DNA from: Halobaculum sp. XH14
Lineage (GTDB): Archaea > Halobacteriota > Halobacteria > Halobacteriales > Haloferacaceae
Direction of reading: 5' to 3'
Length of the DNA: 64,000 bases
Assembly (NCBI RefSeq): GCF_032116555.1
Contig: NZ_CP134949.1
Span: forward strand, 1,860,001 to 1,924,000
Notes under the pieces: model-generated
The model's input: the letters and a program-made list of their open reading frames with translations, nothing else
What the model was told of the DNA's origin: nothing
The model's database searches: none
Shown here: positions 38,437 through 47,306 of the stretch, piece by piece
Layout of the letters: every line of letters starts with the position of its first letter
How positions within the stretch are numbered: position 1 is the stretch's first letter
Position numbers and translations under genes: made by a program

Positions 38437-40689
38437 ATGGGACTGGACGACGACGCACGGGAGTACCATCGCGAGGACCCGCCGGGGAAGATAGAGATCT
38501 CGACGACGAAACCGACGAACACGCAGCGTGACCTCTCACTGGCCTACTCGCCCGGCGTCGCCGCGCCGTGTCTCGACATCGCCGAGGATCCCGAGGCGGC
38601 CTACGAGTACACCGCCAAGGGGAACCTCGTCGGCGTCGTCTCCAACGGTTCTGCGGTGCTCGGCCTCGGCGACATCGGCGCGCAGGCCTCGAAACCCGTC
38701 ATGGAGGGGAAGGGCGTCCTGTTCAAGCGCTTCGCCGACATCGACGTGTTCGACATCGAACTCGACCAGCAGGACCCCGAGGACATCATCACCTCCGTCG
38801 CGGCGATGGAGCCGACGTTCGGCGGCATCAACCTCGAAGACATCACCGCGCCCGAGTGCTTCGAGATCGAATCGCGCCTGCGCGAGGAGATGGACGTGCC
38901 CGTGTTCCACGACGACCAGCACGGCACCGCGATCATCTCCGGTGCCGCGCTCATCAACGCCGCCGACATCGCGGACAAGGCGCTCTCGGAGCTGAAGATC
39001 GTCTTCTCGGGCGCCGGCGCGTCGGCGATCGCGACCGCGCGGTTCTACGTCTCGCTCGGGGCCGACCCGGACAACGTCCTCATGTGTGACTCCTCGGGCA
39101 TCATCACCGAGTCGCGCGCCGATGAGGTCAACGAGTTCAAGCGGGAGTTCGCCCGCGACGTCCCGGAGGGCGACCTCGCCACGGCGATGGAGGGCGCGGA
39201 CGTGTTCGTCGGGCTCTCGGTGGGTGGCATCGTGGACGGGGAGATGGTGCGTTCGATGGCCGCGGACCCGATCATCTTCGCCATGGCGAACCCAGACCCG
39301 GAGATCGCCTACGAGGACGCGAAGGACGCACGCGAGGACACGGTCATCATGGCGACCGGCCGCTCGGACTACCCCAATCAGGTGAACAACGTGCTCGGCT
39401 TCCCGTTCATCTTCCGGGGCGCGCTCGACGCGCGGGCGACCGACATCAACGAGGAGATGAAACGCGCGGCCGCCGAGGCGCTCGCCGACCTCGCCCGACA
39501 GGACGTCCCCGACGCGGTCGTGAAGGCCTACGGCGACCAGCCGCTCCAGTTCGGCGCGGACTACGTCATCCCGAAGCCGCTCGACCCGCGCGTGCTGTTC
39601 CAGGTCGCCCCCGCCGTCGCGGAGGCGGCGATGGACTCGGGCGTCGCGCGGAGCGAACTCGACGCCGACGAGTACGCCGAGCGGCTCGAAGCGCGGCTGG
39701 GCAAGAGCCGCGAGATGATGCGCGTCGTGCTCAACAAGGCCCGGTCGGAGCCGAAACGCGTCGCGCTCGCGGAGGGGACCGACGAGAAGATGATCCGTGC
39801 GGCCTACCAGCTACGAGAGCAGGGCATCGCGGAGCCGGTGCTGCTCGGCGATCAGGATAGCATCGAGGCGACGACCGAGGAACTGGGGCTCGGGTTCGAC
39901 CCCGAGGTCGTCGACCCCGACGCGGACGGGATGGCCGACCGCTACGCGGACCGCCTGCACGAACTCCGCAAGCGGAAGGGCATCACCCGAACCGAGGCGG
40001 GCGAACTCGTCCGCCGTGACACTAACTACTTCGGGAGCGTCATGGTCGAGGAGGGCGACGCGGACGCGCTCCTGACGGGGCTCACCCACCATTACCCGTC
40101 GGCGCTCCGCCCGCCGCTGCAGGTCATCGGCACCGCCGAGGACGCCGACTACGCGGCCGGCGTGTACATGCTGACGTTCAAGAACCGGGTCGTGTTCTGT
40201 GCGGACGCGACGGTGAACCAGGAGCCCGACGAGGAGGTACTCGCCGAGGTGACCAAACACACGGCCGAACTCGCGCGGAGCTTCAACGTGGAGCCGCGCG
40301 CGGCGATGCTCTCGTACTCGAACTTCGGCTCCGTCGAGAACGAGGGGACGGCGAAGCCGCGCCGCGCGGTCGATCTGCTCCACGGCGACGCCGCCGTCGA
40401 CTTCCCCGTCGACGGCGAGATGCAGGCCGACACGGCAGTCGTCGAGGACATCCTCGAGGAGACGTACGACTTCTCGGAGCTCGACGGGCCGGCGAACGTG
40501 CTGGTGTTCCCGAACCTCGAAGCCGGGAACATCGGCTACAAGCTGCTCCAGCGGCTCGGCGGCGCGGAGGCGATCGGCCCGATGCTCGTCGGCATGGACA
40601 AGCCGGTCCACGTCCTCCAGCGCGGCGACGAAGTGAAGGACATCGTCAACCTCGCCGGCGTCGCCGTCGTCGACGCACAGAACGAGTAG
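38437..40689 (+). CDS. maeB: NADP-dependent malic enzyme with phosphotransacetylase-like domain
   Basis: 750 residues. The malic-enzyme part (1-420) contains YSPGVAAPC (37-45), [14 protein letters not shown] (90-103) with the catalytic Lys, metal-binding HDDQHGTA (158-165) and the coenzyme loop SGAGASA (191-197). The C-terminal part (about 430-750) is phosphotransacetylase-like, as in bacterial MaeB, where it is regulatory (acetyl-CoA sensing) and inactive. The enzyme decarboxylates malate to pyruvate with NADP reduction, giving NADPH for lipid synthesis. A ctttttcc box about 27 nt upstream suggests a separate promoter. Confidence 0.93.
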
Positions 40690-40858: not shown

Positions 40859-42505
40859 ATGTCCGACAGTGACACGACGAGGCGACGGTTCCTGACCGCT
40901 GCGGGTTCGGCTGCCGCGGCAGTATCGCTCGCCGGCTGTTCCGAGGGCGGCGACACGACGCCGACGCCGGGCGACGACGGGACGCCCGAGCCGACCGCGA
41001 CCGACTCGCCGGAGGGGACGCCGACCGAGCGCCCGGAGCCCGAGACCCGCGAGGGCTACCTCCAGCGGGCGAACCGACTGATCCACGACGAGGCACCGTG
41101 GGTGTTCCTCAACCGCCAGTACTCGGTGTACGGCCAGTCCACGGACATCGAGTGGTCGCCCCGGCGCGACGAGCGCGTGGCGGCGTACGCCATCTCGCCC
41201 GCGAACGACGATGGGGAGGACGTCGTGATGACCCAGTCCCAGATGGACTCGGGAGTCGACCCGCAGGATCACCGCGAGACGCCGACCGACAACATCGTCC
41301 TGCAGGCCTACGAGGGGCTCCTGGAGCGTGACGCCGAGGGTGCCATCGTCCAGAAGCTCGCGACCGACTACACCCGACTCGACGAGACGACCGTCCAGTT
41401 CACGGTTCGGGACGACGTCTCGTTCCACAGCGGCGACTCGCTGACGCCCGAGGACGTCTCGTTCTCGATCAACCGCATCGTCGACGACGAGGTCGGCATC
41501 GTCAGCCCCCAGTCCGACCAGCTCATCGGCGTCACCGGCGCCGAGGTCTCGAGCGAGAGCGACCGCACCGTCGACGTCTCGCTCAGCGGACTGAACCCGA
41601 TCGTCTTCCAGTCGTTCGCCACGTACTGTGACGTCATGAACAGGTCGTGGGTCGAGGAGAACGAGAACGCCTACGTGAACCAGAACATGGACGGGACCGG
41701 CCCGTTCGCCATGACCAACTACGAGCAGGGCGTCGAGGTCTCCTTCGAGCGCTACGAGGACTACTGGGACGAGCCGGCGGCCATCTCGACGTTCACGATC
41801 AACTCCGCGGGCGAGTCGTCGACGCGCGTCAACCGGCTCATCAGCGGCGAGAGCGACATCGCGGTGAACGTCCCGCCCCAGGAGGTCTCCCGCGTCGACG
41901 GCAACGACGGCACGGCCGTCTCGGCGGTGCCGTCCACCCGCGTGCTGTTCAACGGGATGCGCTACGACCTGGAGCCGTTCAGCTCCCCCGAGTTCCGGCA
42001 GGCGATCAACTACGCGATCGACCTCGACTCGATCATCCAGAACGTCCTGCAGACGTTCGGCGACCCGACCGGTCAGCCGACCCTCGAGGGGTTCTTCGGC
42101 TACAACGGCGATCTGGACCCGTACCCACAGGACCAGGAGATGGCCGAACAGCTCATCGAGGAGTCCGGTCACGCCGGCGCGGAGATCGAACTCGTGACGC
42201 CCATCGGCCGCTACCTCCGCGACGTCGAGATCGCACAGGCCGTCGGCGGGCAGGTCGACGAGCTCTCGAACGTCAGCGCAACCGTGCGGCAGGTGGAGTT
42301 CTCCACGCTCGTCAGCCAGGTGACCACGGGCAACATCGAGGACAAGCCCCCGTGGTACCTGCTCGGCTGGGGGAACGCGACGTTCGACGCGATCCAGACG
42401 ATCCAGCCGCTCCTCGCGTCCGACGGCTCGCTGACCTCATACAGCAACGAGGAACTCGACCGGCTCCTTGAGGAAGCACAGAGCCTCCCGAGCGAGAGCA
42501 ACTGA
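40859..42505 (+). CDS. Peptide-type ABC substrate-binding lipoprotein, apparently circularly permuted
   Basis: 548 residues. TRRRFLTAAG (7-16) is a Tat signal and SLAGC (23-27) the lipobox; a Thr/Pro/Glu linker runs to about 63. Residues 64-112 (REGYLQRANRLIHDEAPWVF, then a YSVYG motif) are homologous to the segment that in DppA/OppA proteins lies near the C-terminus. The expected mature N-terminus follows (MTQSQMDSGVDPQDHRE, 124-140), then the family 5 core (FTVRDDVSFHSGDSLTPEDV). The protein ends LLEEAQSLPSESN, exactly where REGYLQRAN would normally continue. The operon downstream has two permeases and two ATPases. Substrate likely a peptide or related compound; tight binding in this order is inferred only. 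Confidence 0.85.
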   Translation: MSDSDTTRRRFLTAAGSAAAAVSLAGCSEGGDTTPTPGDDGTPEPTATDSPEGTPTERPEPETREGYLQRANRLIHDEAPWVFLNRQYSVYGQSTDIEWSPRRDERVAAYAISPANDDGEDVVMTQSQMDSGVDPQDHRETPTDNIVLQAYEGLLERDAEGAIVQKLATDYTRLDETTVQFTVRDDVSFHSGDSLTPEDVSFSINRIVDDEVGIVSPQSDQLIGVTGAEVSSESDRTVDVSLSGLNPIVFQSFATYCDVMNRSWVEENENAYVNQNMDGTGPFAMTNYEQGVEVSFERYEDYWDEPAAISTFTINSAGESSTRVNRLISGESDIAVNVPPQEVSRVDGNDGTAVSAVPSTRVLFNGMRYDLEPFSSPEFRQAINYAIDLDSIIQNVLQTFGDPTGQPTLEGFFGYNGDLDPYPQDQEMAEQLIEESGHAGAEIELVTPIGRYLRDVEIAQAVGGQVDELSNVSATVRQVEFSTLVSQVTTGNIEDKPPWYLLGWGNATFDAIQTIQPLLASDGSLTSYSNEELDRLLEEAQSLPSESN

Positions 42506-42512
42506 GTTGGCC

Positions 42513-43502
42513 ATGGCGTACGGCCGATTTTTACTGAAACGCGGACTGCAGGGTATCGGCGTCGTCTGGGGAGTCGTGACCGTCGTGTTCATGCTGCGGT
42601 TCATCACGCCGGGGAGCCCGGTGGACACGGTCGCGCCGCTGGACGCCGACCAGGAGACCCGACGGCGGATCGCGGAGGATCTCGGGCTGAACGAGCCGCT
42701 GTACGTCCAGTACGGCAACTACATCTGGGACCTGCTGCACGGCGACATGGGCTACTCGTACATCTCGAGCATCCCCGCGAGCGCCCAGGTGTTCAGTAAG
42801 CTCCCGGCCACGATCGAGCTCGCGGTCGCGGCGAGCGTCGTCGCCATCGTCATCTCGATCCCGCTGGGCGTCGTCAGCGCGACCCGCCGGCACCAGCCCG
42901 CCGACTACGGCGCGACGACGTTCTCGCTCGTCGGCATCTCGACGCCGAACTTCTGGCTCGGCATCATGCTCGTGCTGGTGTTCGCGGTCGAGTTGAACGT
43001 GTTCCCGACCAGCGGACGGGCCTACGGGTTCGCCGACTCGGTCGCCGCGATCTACGGCCCCGCGCCGTTCTTCGAGGTGGCCACGGCGTGGCTCGCGTCG
43101 CTGTTCCTCCCGGCGATCACCCTCGGGACGTACTTCACCGCGCTCATCACGCGGCTCACCCGCTCGGGGATGCTCGACGAGCTCGGGAAGGGCTACGTCA
43201 CGGCCACCCGGGCGAAGGGGCTGCCCGAGTCGCTCGTCAAGTACAAACACGTGCTTCGGAACACGCTCGTGCCCGTCATCACGGTGCTCGGGCTCCAGCT
43301 TGGCACCCTCATCGGCGGGGCAGTCATCACGGAGGCCGTGTTCGCGTGGCCCGGACTCGGCACGGAGATCATCCAGGCCATCAACGCGCGTGACTGGCCG
43401 ATCCTCCAGGGGAGCCTCATCGTCATCGGCACGGCGTTTGTCGTGGTGAACATCGCGGTCGACGCGCTGTACGCGTACCTCGACCCGCGGGTGGTCGCAT
43501 AA
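42513..43502 (+). CDS. Peptide-type ABC transporter permease, DppB/OppB type
   Basis: 329 residues from ATG 42513, 7 nt after the binding-protein stop. The N-terminal segment (9-30) is followed by a periplasmic-facing loop and five more hydrophobic segments. GYVTATRAKGLPESLVKYKH is the EAA-like coupling loop and GTLIGGAVITEAVFAWPGLG is the OppB signature. It pairs with the next gene to form the pore. Its stop overlaps the next ATG as TAATG. Confidence 0.92.
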   Translation: MAYGRFLLKRGLQGIGVVWGVVTVVFMLRFITPGSPVDTVAPLDADQETRRRIAEDLGLNEPLYVQYGNYIWDLLHGDMGYSYISSIPASAQVFSKLPATIELAVAASVVAIVISIPLGVVSATRRHQPADYGATTFSLVGISTPNFWLGIMLVLVFAVELNVFPTSGRAYGFADSVAAIYGPAPFFEVATAWLASLFLPAITLGTYFTALITRLTRSGMLDELGKGYVTATRAKGLPESLVKYKHVLRNTLVPVITVLGLQLGTLIGGAVITEAVFAWPGLGTEIIQAINARDWPILQGSLIVIGTAFVVVNIAVDALYAYLDPRVVA

Positions 43503-44575
43503 TGAAGCTCGGACCGCTCTCGATCTCGCCGCGGACGATCCGGAACCTTCGCGGTGAACTGCGATCGAGCGCGCTGGCGAAGGTGGGGATCGTCCTCATC
43601 GTCGGCATCATCCTCGTCGCCGCGCTCGCGCCGTTCGTCGCGCCACACAACCCCCGAACACAGGACCTTGAGAACGCAAGCACGCCGCCGCTCGGCTTCA
43701 CGTCGACCGAACAGCGGACGACCTCACAGATGGTGAACGGAAGCGTGGAGATCGTCAACGAGTCGGTGACCGTCAACGCGACCGCCGAGCACCCGCTGGG
43801 GACGAACTCGCTCGGACAGGACATCCTCTCGCGTGCCATCTACGGCGCGCGGACCTCGCTGCTCGTGGGGCTGCTCGGGACGATTCTGGCCAGCGTGCTC
43901 GGGGTCACCGTCGGGCTGACCGCGGGCTACTACCGCGGACGGACCGACGACCTGCTGATGCGGCTCGCCGACGTCTCGCTCGCGTTCCCGTCGCTCGTGC
44001 TCGCCATCGCGCTCATCGGACTGTTCAGCCGGTTCCAGGCGGCGGTGGCCGTGAGCTTGGGTGATCCGTTCGTGACCTCCGGGCTCGCCGCGTCGTTCCG
44101 CGAGGCGGTCGGCTTGCCGACGCCGATGCCCGGCAGCGTGACGCTCCCGACGGTCGTCATCCTCGTCGTCGGCTTCGTCAGCTGGGTGTGGTTCGCACGG
44201 ATCGCGCGGGGGGAGGCGCTCTCCATCCGCGAGGAGGAGTACGTGAAGGCCGCACGCGCGCTCGGTGCCAGCGACGCGCGAATCGTCTTCCGGCACGTCC
44301 TCCCGAACGCGATCACGCCCATTTTGGTGCTGGCGACGATCCAGATCGCGTCGATCATCCTGCTGGAGTCGTCGCTCTCGTTCCTCGGCTTCTCGGGAAC
44401 GACGCTCTCGTGGGGCTTCGACATCGCGCAGGGGCGCGACTACCTCTCGTCCTCGTGGTGGATCGCAACCGTCCCCGGCGTGGCCATCGTGCTGGCCGTG
44501 GTCGGCATCAACCTCGTCGGCGACTGGCTCCGCGATGCGCTCGACCCCGGCATCGAGGGCGAGGGGGGGATGTAG
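43502..44575 (+). CDS. Peptide-type ABC transporter permease, DppC/OppC type
   Basis: 357 residues. Hydrophobic segment at 26-46, then a long outer loop containing sequons (NGS, NES, NAT) before the core starting at LGTNSLGQDILSRAIYGART, the OppC signature. Coupling loop: EYVKAARALGASDARIVFRH. Partner of the previous permease. The ATPase gene begins on the base after its stop codon. Confidence 0.92.
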   Translation: MKLGPLSISPRTIRNLRGELRSSALAKVGIVLIVGIILVAALAPFVAPHNPRTQDLENASTPPLGFTSTEQRTTSQMVNGSVEIVNESVTVNATAEHPLGTNSLGQDILSRAIYGARTSLLVGLLGTILASVLGVTVGLTAGYYRGRTDDLLMRLADVSLAFPSLVLAIALIGLFSRFQAAVAVSLGDPFVTSGLAASFREAVGLPTPMPGSVTLPTVVILVVGFVSWVWFARIARGEALSIREEEYVKAARALGASDARIVFRHVLPNAITPILVLATIQIASIILLESSLSFLGFSGTTLSWGFDIAQGRDYLSSSWWIATVPGVAIVLAVVGINLVGDWLRDALDPGIEGEGGM

Positions 44576-45868
44576 ATGTCCGCCGATCGAAACCACGGCG
44601 GACACGTCGACGGTCACCCGGACGACGTGCTCCGCGTCAGGAACCTCTCGACCCGATTTTTCACCAGCGACGGGCAGGTGAACGCGGTCGAGTCCGTCGA
44701 CTTCGACGTCCGCGACGGCGAGGTGTTCGGCATCGTCGGCGAGTCCGGCTCGGGCAAGTCCGTCACCGCGCTCTCGGTCGTCGACCTCGTCGACTCGCCC
44801 GGGCGGATCACCCAGGGCGAGGTGTGGTACCGCGACGCCGACCTCGCGGCGGCGTTCGAGGACGACCGGTCCGAAGCGGTCGACGGCGAGTTCGTCGACG
44901 TCCGGCGGCTGCCCGAGGGCGCGCGTCGCTCCCTGCGGGGGCCGTCGTTCTCGATGATCTTCCAGGACCCGATGTCGTCGCTGAACCCGTCGCTGACCGT
45001 CGGCGAGCAGATCGCCGAGGCGGTCGAGGTCCAGCGCCGGGCGAACGCGAACCCCCGGCGCACCCGGTCGCGCACCCAGGGGTACGGCATGGCCCGGTTC
45101 CTCACCGACGCGCTGCTCCCGAGCCGGAGCTACGCGAGCACGGCGAGCCACGAGCGAGCCGTCGAACTGCTCGACCAGGTCGGCATTCCCGACCCCGCGG
45201 AGCGAGCCGAGGAGTACCCGCACCAGTTCTCCGGCGGGATGCTCCAGCGTGCGATGATCGCGCAGGCGCTCGCCGGCGAGCCGGACGTGCTCGTCGCCGA
45301 CGAGCCGACGACCGCCCTCGACGTCACCATCCAGGCGCAGATCCTCGACCTGCTCCGCGAGCTTCAGGAGGAAGAGGACATGTCCGTCGTGCTCATCACG
45401 CACGATCTCGGCGTCATCGCGCGGATGTGCAACCGCGTCGGCGTGATGTACGCCGGCGAGATCGTCGAGCGCGGCACGCTCTCGGACGTGTTCGAGTCGC
45501 CGATCCACCCGTACACGCGGGGGCTGCTGGGTTCCATCCCGGACCTCGAGGACCCCGCGCCGCGGCTCCAGCCCATCGAGGGGAACGTCCCCTCGCTGCT
45601 GGATTCCGAGATGGGAGAGCGGTGTTACTTCGCGGACCGCTGTCCGAAGGCCATGTACGACTGCCTCGACCCGGTTCCCGAGTACGACGTCGACCGCGGG
45701 AGCGACGAACACGCCGCTCGCTGTGTCCTCGCCGAGCGCGAGTTCGACGAGGCGGACGCGCTGCCCGCGGACCACTTCGCCGCGGCAGGCAGCGTCGCGG
45801 AGACGGAGGAAAGCCCGGCCGACGGGTCCGCCGGCGCGGCCGAGGAGGGGGTGTCCGTCGATGACTGA
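44576..45868 (+). CDS. Peptide-type ABC transporter ATPase, OppD/DppD type
   Basis: 430 residues. Walker [10 protein letters not shown] (55-63), signature [15 protein letters not shown], Walker [13 protein letters not shown] and switch His in ITHDLGVIA. The C-terminal Cys-rich region ([14 protein letters not shown], later ARCVLAE) is the oligopeptide-transporter extension that may hold an Fe-S cluster. An acidic tail of about 45 residues follows. A segment of about 60 residues around 95-150 is longer than in bacterial OppD. Overlaps the next gene by 8 nt. Confidence 0.93.
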
Positions 45869-47306
45869 GCCCGATCCGCTGCTTCGGGTCCGGGGCCTCC
45901 GGAAGTACTACTTCGAGGACGACACGCTGCTCGACCGGCTGATGGGCCGGGATCCGACCAGCGTGAAGGCCGTCGACGGCGTCGACCTCACGGTCGAGAA
46001 GGGCGAGACGCTCGGGCTGGTCGGCGAGTCCGGCTGCGGTAAATCGACCACGGGCGAGACGCTGTTGCGCCTGCGCGATGCGACCGAGGGTGAGATCGAG
46101 TTCGACGGCGAGGACGTGCTCGGGATGTCCAGCGGCGAACTCCGCGAGTTCCGACAGCGCGCCCAGATCGTCTTCCAGGACCCGTTCTCCAGTCTCGACC
46201 CGCGGCTGACGGTCGGACAGATCATCTCGGAGGGGCTCTCGATCCACGGGCTACCCGAGGAGTCGCCCGACGACGGCCGCTCCAAGCGGGAGTGGCGGCG
46301 CGACCGGGCGACCGAACTGCTCGAGCGGGTCGGCCTCTCCGCCGGGCAGATCGACCGCTACCCGCACGAGTTCTCGGGCGGGCAGCGCCAGCGGGTCGGC
46401 ATCGCCCGCGCGCTCGCGCTCGACCCCGAGTTCGTCGTGCTCGACGAACCGGTCTCGGCACTGGACGTGAGCGTCCAGGCGCAGATCCTCAACCTGCTCG
46501 ACGACCTGCAGGAGGAGTACGGGCTGACGTACCTGTTCATCGCCCACGACCTCTCGGTGGTGCGTCACATCTGCGACCGCGTCGCGGTGATGTATCTGGG
46601 CGAGGTCGTCGAGAGCGGCCCGACCGACTCCATCTTCGAGGAGCCGAAACACCCGTACACGAACGCGCTGCTGGAGTCGGTCCCGCGCGCGGACGTGAGC
46701 GAGCAGGGCCGGCGCGTCGACCCGCTCTCGGGCGACGTCCCGTCGCCGCGCGACCCGCCCTCCGGCTGTCATTTCCGGACGCGCTGTCCGGAGATCATTC
46801 CCCCGGCTGGCGTCGAAATCGACCAGTCGGACTACCGGAGCGTGATGGACCTGCGTGAGCGCCTCGAACGCGGCGACTACGATGCCGAGACCGTCCGGGA
46901 GCGGATGGACGACCCGGACGCGAACGCCGCGGCGTTCAAGGAGGCGGTCCGGGCGGAGTTCGGGCTCGACTCGATCTCCGGCGCGAACATGGACACCGTC
47001 GAGGACGCACTGGAGATCCTGGCGAACGACCGGGCCGAGGAGGCCGCCGACCGCCTCCGCGACCGGTTCGAATCGGTCTGCGAGACGCAGGCGCCAACCC
47101 TCCCCGACGGGGAACACCCGGCTGCCTGCCATCGGTTCCGCGAGGGGGTCGCCGATCACCTCGACGACGGGGACGATGCCGACGACGGCCCGGTGACCGA
47201 GCCGGACATCGGCGGGCCGGCCGGGATGGCGATGGGTCCGACCGGCGCCGACGACGCGGCGGTCGACATCGATCGGGCCGAAGAGTCCGCCGACCGGGGA
47301 CGCTGA
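45861..47306 (+). CDS. Peptide-type ABC transporter ATPase, OppF/DppF type, with long C-terminal insert
   Basis: 481 residues; bacterial OppF is about 330. Walker [10 protein letters not shown] (55-63), signature [15 protein letters not shown], Walker [12 protein letters not shown] and switch FIAHDLSVV are intact. The C-terminal Cys motif is split: [13 protein letters not shown] near residue 305 and [13 protein letters not shown] near 410, with about 95 helical, acidic residues between. It ends in an acidic tail with [11 protein letters not shown]. Last gene of the operon; ATG 45861 overlaps the previous stop. Confidence 0.92.

Follow-up and report, generated by a model that had tools for sequence, protein, structure and literature searches.

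The gene at positions 40859–42505 of the window (the whole stretch of Halobaculum sp. XH14 DNA analysed, 64,000 nucleotides) encodes, with a probability that we put at about 0.88, a functional substrate-binding protein (SBP) of a Dpp/Opp-type ABC importer that is a natural circular permutant. We propose that the chain would have been opened in the loop that connects the two final helices of lobe 2, with the freed C-terminal ~55 residues – the last lobe-2 helix and the strand returning to lobe 1 – being placed behind the Tat signal, the lipobox and the linker. The old C-terminus would then be tied by a short linker to the old mature N-terminus, the two being neighbours on the lobe-1 sheet. The folded product would be essentially the same Venus flytrap, with the lipid tether entering via lobe 2 and not via lobe 1.

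Translation of 40859–42502 yields a protein of 548 amino acids, followed by the stop codon at 42503–42505; the coordinates of the initial annotation are right, and the host genome comprises 3.68 Mb in three contigs. The protein belongs to the SBP_bac_5 family, as judged by a match of PF00496 to residues 163–523 (E 4.9e-62, 210.6 bits against the curated Pfam cut-off of 32.4). None of the NCBIfam equivalog profiles, DppA and OppA among them, scored above its cut-off: the DppA equivalog NF043070 reached 57.4 bits, the cut-off being 1005. Domain models of both collections score permuted proteins without flagging the rearrangement. The N-terminus has the twin-arginine motif and the lipobox of a Tat-exported lipoprotein (RRRFL at residues 8–12; LAGC with Cys27), and on the strength of these motifs Cys27 is expected to be lipidated. 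Behind the linker follow residues 61–115, PETREGYLQRANRLIHDEAPWVFLNRQYSVYG...DERVAAYAISPA, and only from residue 122 onwards does one read the usual mature start, VVMTQSQMDSG (VVMTQSQMDSGVDP). The features of the gene and its surroundings are collected in Table 1.

Table 1. Features of the permuted SBP gene and neighbouring genes (window positions; residues are those of the full-length protein).
Feature	Position	Strand	Basis
Circularly permuted SBP_bac_5 lipoprotein, 548 aa	40859..42505	+	ORF translation; Pfam PF00496
Tat-type signal and lipobox LAGC	40859..40939	+	Sequence; weak Pfam TAT_signal match, below cut-off
Linker, residues 28–60, low-complexity Pro/Thr/Asp	40940..41038	+	Sequence; length as in canonical relatives
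Moved block, residues 61–115, equivalent to the canonical C-terminal ~55 residues	41039..41203	+	Aligned to 38 canonical C-termini
Predicted helix, residues 64–78	41048..41092	+	AF2 H39–53 (model numbering, offset +25), counterpart of control H429–446
APWVFLNRQYSVYG motif, residues 79–92, with predicted strand from lobe 2 to lobe 1	41093..41134	+	AF2 E63–69; SapA domain limits (PMC8519434)
Joint NDDGED, residues 116–121, old C-terminus to old mature N-terminus	41204..41221	+	Sequence, alignment
Core, residues 122–548, canonical order	41222..42502	+	Model residues 93–522 aligned to 1uqw 3–435
New C-terminus LLEEAQSLPSESN, right after the penultimate lobe-2 helix	42464..42502	+	Sequence, alignment, AF2
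DppB-type permease	42513..43502	+	ORF list, profile search
DppC-type permease	43502..44575	+	ORF list, profile search
DppD-type ATPase	44576..45868	+	Walker and signature motifs by sequence
DppF-type ATPase	45861..47306	+	Walker and signature motifs by sequence
Malic enzyme / phosphate acetyltransferase-like gene, upstream flank marker	38437..40689	+	Named by resemblance

The swapped order is seen directly in alignments to canonical homologues, which supports the circular permutation of a DppA/OppA-type SBP that the initial annotation had proposed: two homologous segments have changed places, the old termini are joined and the new termini lie elsewhere. Haloarchaeal and bacterial relatives carry the block at the C-terminus, so that it is indeed normally C-terminal in family 5, and the alternative that an N-terminal block is the norm fails. 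The protein does end, at LLEEAQSLPSESN, where the moved segment would begin. The placement of that segment after the lipobox linker also stands; the limits first given for it, residues 64–112, were slightly short, the piece spanning about 61–115.

Over its ~55 residues, the block matches the C-termini of ~60%-identical canonical homologues with E-values of about 1e-14 to 1e-21 (phmmer), which excludes chance, and it aligns essentially without internal gaps. The same columns are strong in both topologies (APW.FL..QYSVYG.S...W..R.DE), and the column entropies of the permuted and canonical blocks are correlated (rho 0.79, p 2e-12). The largest differences fall on the first helix, with Y/H/F and R in the permuted form versus L/T and E in the canonical one, as expected if this helix now opens the domain; lesser shifts are found near the joint. 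Among Halobaculum-type sequences the dN/dS ratio is 0.20–0.52 for the block and 0.24–0.32 for the core, and both are thus under purifying selection.

The permuted order is conserved. Residues 1–548 are matched in full by proteins of Halobaculum litoreum, H. saliterrae and H. gomorrense (77–80% identity). Within the same GTDB family, the permuted form is present in 31 of the 103 genomes that have a close relative, the remainder having canonical forms only. An order-wide search with a junction query made of the block plus the mature start added 19 genomes and five further families, bringing the total to about 50 haloarchaeal genomes, some of them complete, in six GTDB families, with 44–89% identity over the block-plus-start region. 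Outside Halobacteria, a thin sample of 295 genomes of the phylum yielded no permuted form at E ≤ 1e-30, the junction search being confined to archaea. Classification of the fetched ORFs gave 89 permuted entries and 92 canonical ones, the latter both haloarchaeal and bacterial, and none of either class carried the block in mid-chain; removal of duplicates left 50 distinct permuted cores. One genome (G023) carries both forms. Four permuted proteins (L122 and L126–L128; f4, g85) have a low-complexity Gly/Ser/Asn tail of about 20–28 residues past the new C-terminus. A canonical orthologue from a MAG (L180) that appeared to be block-less has a frameshift before its C-terminal block, which is readable in another frame.

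The permuted SBP gene heads a dppBCDF-type operon, with dppB starting 7 bases past the SBP stop; no leftover of the block was seen in this 7-base gap. The malic-enzyme-like flank gene is common to many permuted and canonical loci, and in another genome of the same genus (G001) the matching locus encodes a canonical SBP (L158). There, the order is membrane protein, malic-enzyme-like gene, SBP, dppBCDF and EamA-like transporter. Identity between the two loci is 63–91% for the flanks and 85–87% for DppD/F, and 61%, 73% and 65% for the SBP, DppB and DppC, respectively; the G001 SBP-dppB-dppC segment lies near the canonical group (88–90% to G021). As judged by these identities, SBP-dppB-dppC (40859–44575 of the window versus the L158 locus) looks to have been exchanged as one cassette between species of the genus. 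The permuted protein stands, ahead of orthologous permeases, where the corresponding locus of the other genome has the canonical one, and sharing of a locus in this manner indicates that permuted and canonical proteins fill the same role. In genome G023, a diverged canonical SBP (L173, 51%) lies at the malic-enzyme/EamA locus without a close dppBCDF alongside.

No shift in anchor-linker length between the topologies was found (median 37 for permuted proteins versus 37.5 for canonical relatives), and none of the permease columns cleanly tells the partners of permuted SBPs from those of canonical ones. Taken together with the conservation of the block, this suggests that the permuted form is an interchangeable, functional variant. 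Ligand would then still be caught and passed to DppBC, and the change of anchor would be tolerated.

How many times the permutation arose is a separate matter. The outside family-5 proteins examined that have a locatable block are all canonical, and we therefore take the canonical order as ancestral. The topology label changes at least five times on the tree of the SBP core, and likewise on the DppB+C tree. The order would have changed more than once in the history of the operon, or changed and then reverted: either one permutation was followed by returns to the canonical order, or there were at least two permutations in the same loop. Several independent events at this loop, a reading compatible with the permutation proposed here, are in our estimate slightly less probable than not. 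A single permuted clade is rejected on the combined SBP core, DppB and DppC tree (AU p 0.0002), and a deep clade (f4/f15) bears a different helix signature, LQHAN rather than LQRAN; however, one clade is not rejected with the SBP core alone (p 0.105) or when the deep clade is removed from the concatenation (p 0.09), and the pattern would look no different if the canonical order had later been restored or gene ends had been exchanged. The deep diverged permuted clade (L143, L144, L146 and L147), with SIYG as well as LQHAN in its block, perhaps represents an independent permutation. Permutation by duplication, a described mechanism (PMC3320104), is a possible origin here; the intermediates expected from it, which would carry a copy of the block at either end, were absent among the ORFs examined.

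The predicted structure bears on where the block packs. AF2 modelled the mature permuted protein with pLDDT 80.3 and pTM 0.72 (28-row alignment) and the canonical control L021 with 88.9 and 0.87. The lower confidence of the permuted model, to which the disordered linker perhaps contributes in part, counts against our reading. In both models, the block is predicted to consist of a helix, a strand and a short helix. Residues 64–78 are predicted to be the canonical last lobe-2 helix, here the first element of the fold. With VIA-align 2, a sequential aligner that matches the core up to the point where the block would begin, residues 93–522 of the model (full-length 118–547) align to residues 3–435 of the 487 of 1uqw with Z 33.0 and rmsd 2.0 over 422 aligned residues; the control aligns to 1uqw 3–489 with Z 40.0. 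The permuted alignment thus ends about 53–54 residues short of the 1uqw C-terminus, a length that matches the moved block. Comparison of the model with 1uqw identifies a cluster C (Type II) SBP, with two lobes and an extra domain in lobe 1; the C-terminal strand that returns to lobe 1 in the canonical cluster C order is missing from its usual place in the chain, this piece being at residues 61–115.

In SapA, domain II spans residues 313–531, and the chain re-enters domain Ia with residues 532–561 (PMC8519434). Since the alignment of the permuted model with SapA (7og0) ends at residue 506, inside domain II, the block corresponds to the end of lobe 2 plus the strand back to lobe 1, which places the new termini in lobe 2. 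With the break lying within lobe 2 by these boundaries, the lipid anchor should join lobe 2 instead of lobe 1. The initial annotation had argued from N- and C-termini that lie in one lobe: this holds for the canonical pair, which are together in lobe 1 and can therefore be joined, and is refined for the new pair. The ligand and scoop-loop residues R383 and D436 of Escherichia coli DppA (PMC12136057) would stay in the core, since the alignment with 1dpe extends to residue 453, provided that the numbering of both papers agrees.

On our reading, the block would pack at the canonical position of its own molecule. It could instead fold into the usual site of a neighbouring molecule, with the permutation driving oligomerisation through a domain-swapped dimer: AliC, a family-5 relative, forms such a dimer (PMC11192437), and the joint NDDGED is short. 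However, the two canonical termini are neighbours (PMC10924461), so that a short joint can close one chain, and AF2, run on the monomer, gives the block pLDDT values of mostly 72–86; we consider the dimer improbable. A shade less probable still is that the block represents a new extension of the N-terminus with a role of its own, the core having simply lost its last helix and strand. Packing of the block at the canonical position is a prediction, which leaves this reading some room. Against it, homology to the missing piece runs through the whole block, with the same end point and the same column constraints, and without the block the lobe-1 sheet of every permuted protein would miss its C-terminal strand. 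Assembly or annotation error, the mis-assembly that the initial annotation had itself raised, is excluded by the identical order in ~50 independent genomes, some complete, at 44–89% identity (block-plus-start).

The closest precedent for the circular permutation proposed here that we found is TpMglB-2 (Tp0684), a 'Type Ic / Cluster Bc' glucose-binding lipoprotein of Treponema pallidum and a natural circular permutant, which was shown to keep its fold and its ligand binding despite the permutation and which is present in this form in many species (PMC4990184). Both are natural circular permutations of a membrane-tethered substrate-binding lipoprotein. TpMglB-2, however, belongs to an unrelated family of cluster B, and has the first three N-lobe strands at its C-terminus and an added hinge crossing, whereas in the present cluster C protein the last helix and strand have moved to the N-terminus and the number of lobe crossings is predicted to be unchanged. 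With its cluster C fold and transfer in the opposite direction, the protein falls outside Type Ic / Cluster Bc. Our literature search, with most subscription journals outside its coverage, found nothing relevant on permuted proteins of the DppA/OppA/NikA family or on circularly permuted haloarchaeal transport proteins, and we regard the cluster C case as a variant for which we found no report. E. coli YliB (1uqw), the Bacillus anthracis protein 5u4o and E. coli DppA (1dpe/8z1z) share the core fold (Z 28–33) but have the canonical chain order. The canonical haloarchaeal family-5 SBPs (Salinigranum salinum L021, L158 of G001, Haloarchaeobius and Halorubellus) are ~60% identical in the core and head the same type of operon, in several genomes at the same locus, but differ by their C-terminal block. 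Tentatively, and at slightly less than even odds, we suggest that this cluster C SBP has gone back and forth between chain orders several times in nature, with orthologous permeases as its partners throughout, so that the tether has shifted from one lobe to the other. Nature would thereby have run an experiment whose outcome is that docking either does not depend on which lobe is tethered or has had that lobe tuned by selection. Whether it matters which lobe bears the lipid anchor is a question that was raised, and left open, for TpMglB-2 (PMC4990184); since permuted and canonical orthologues share a locus ahead of orthologous permeases, the effect of the anchored lobe is directly testable here.
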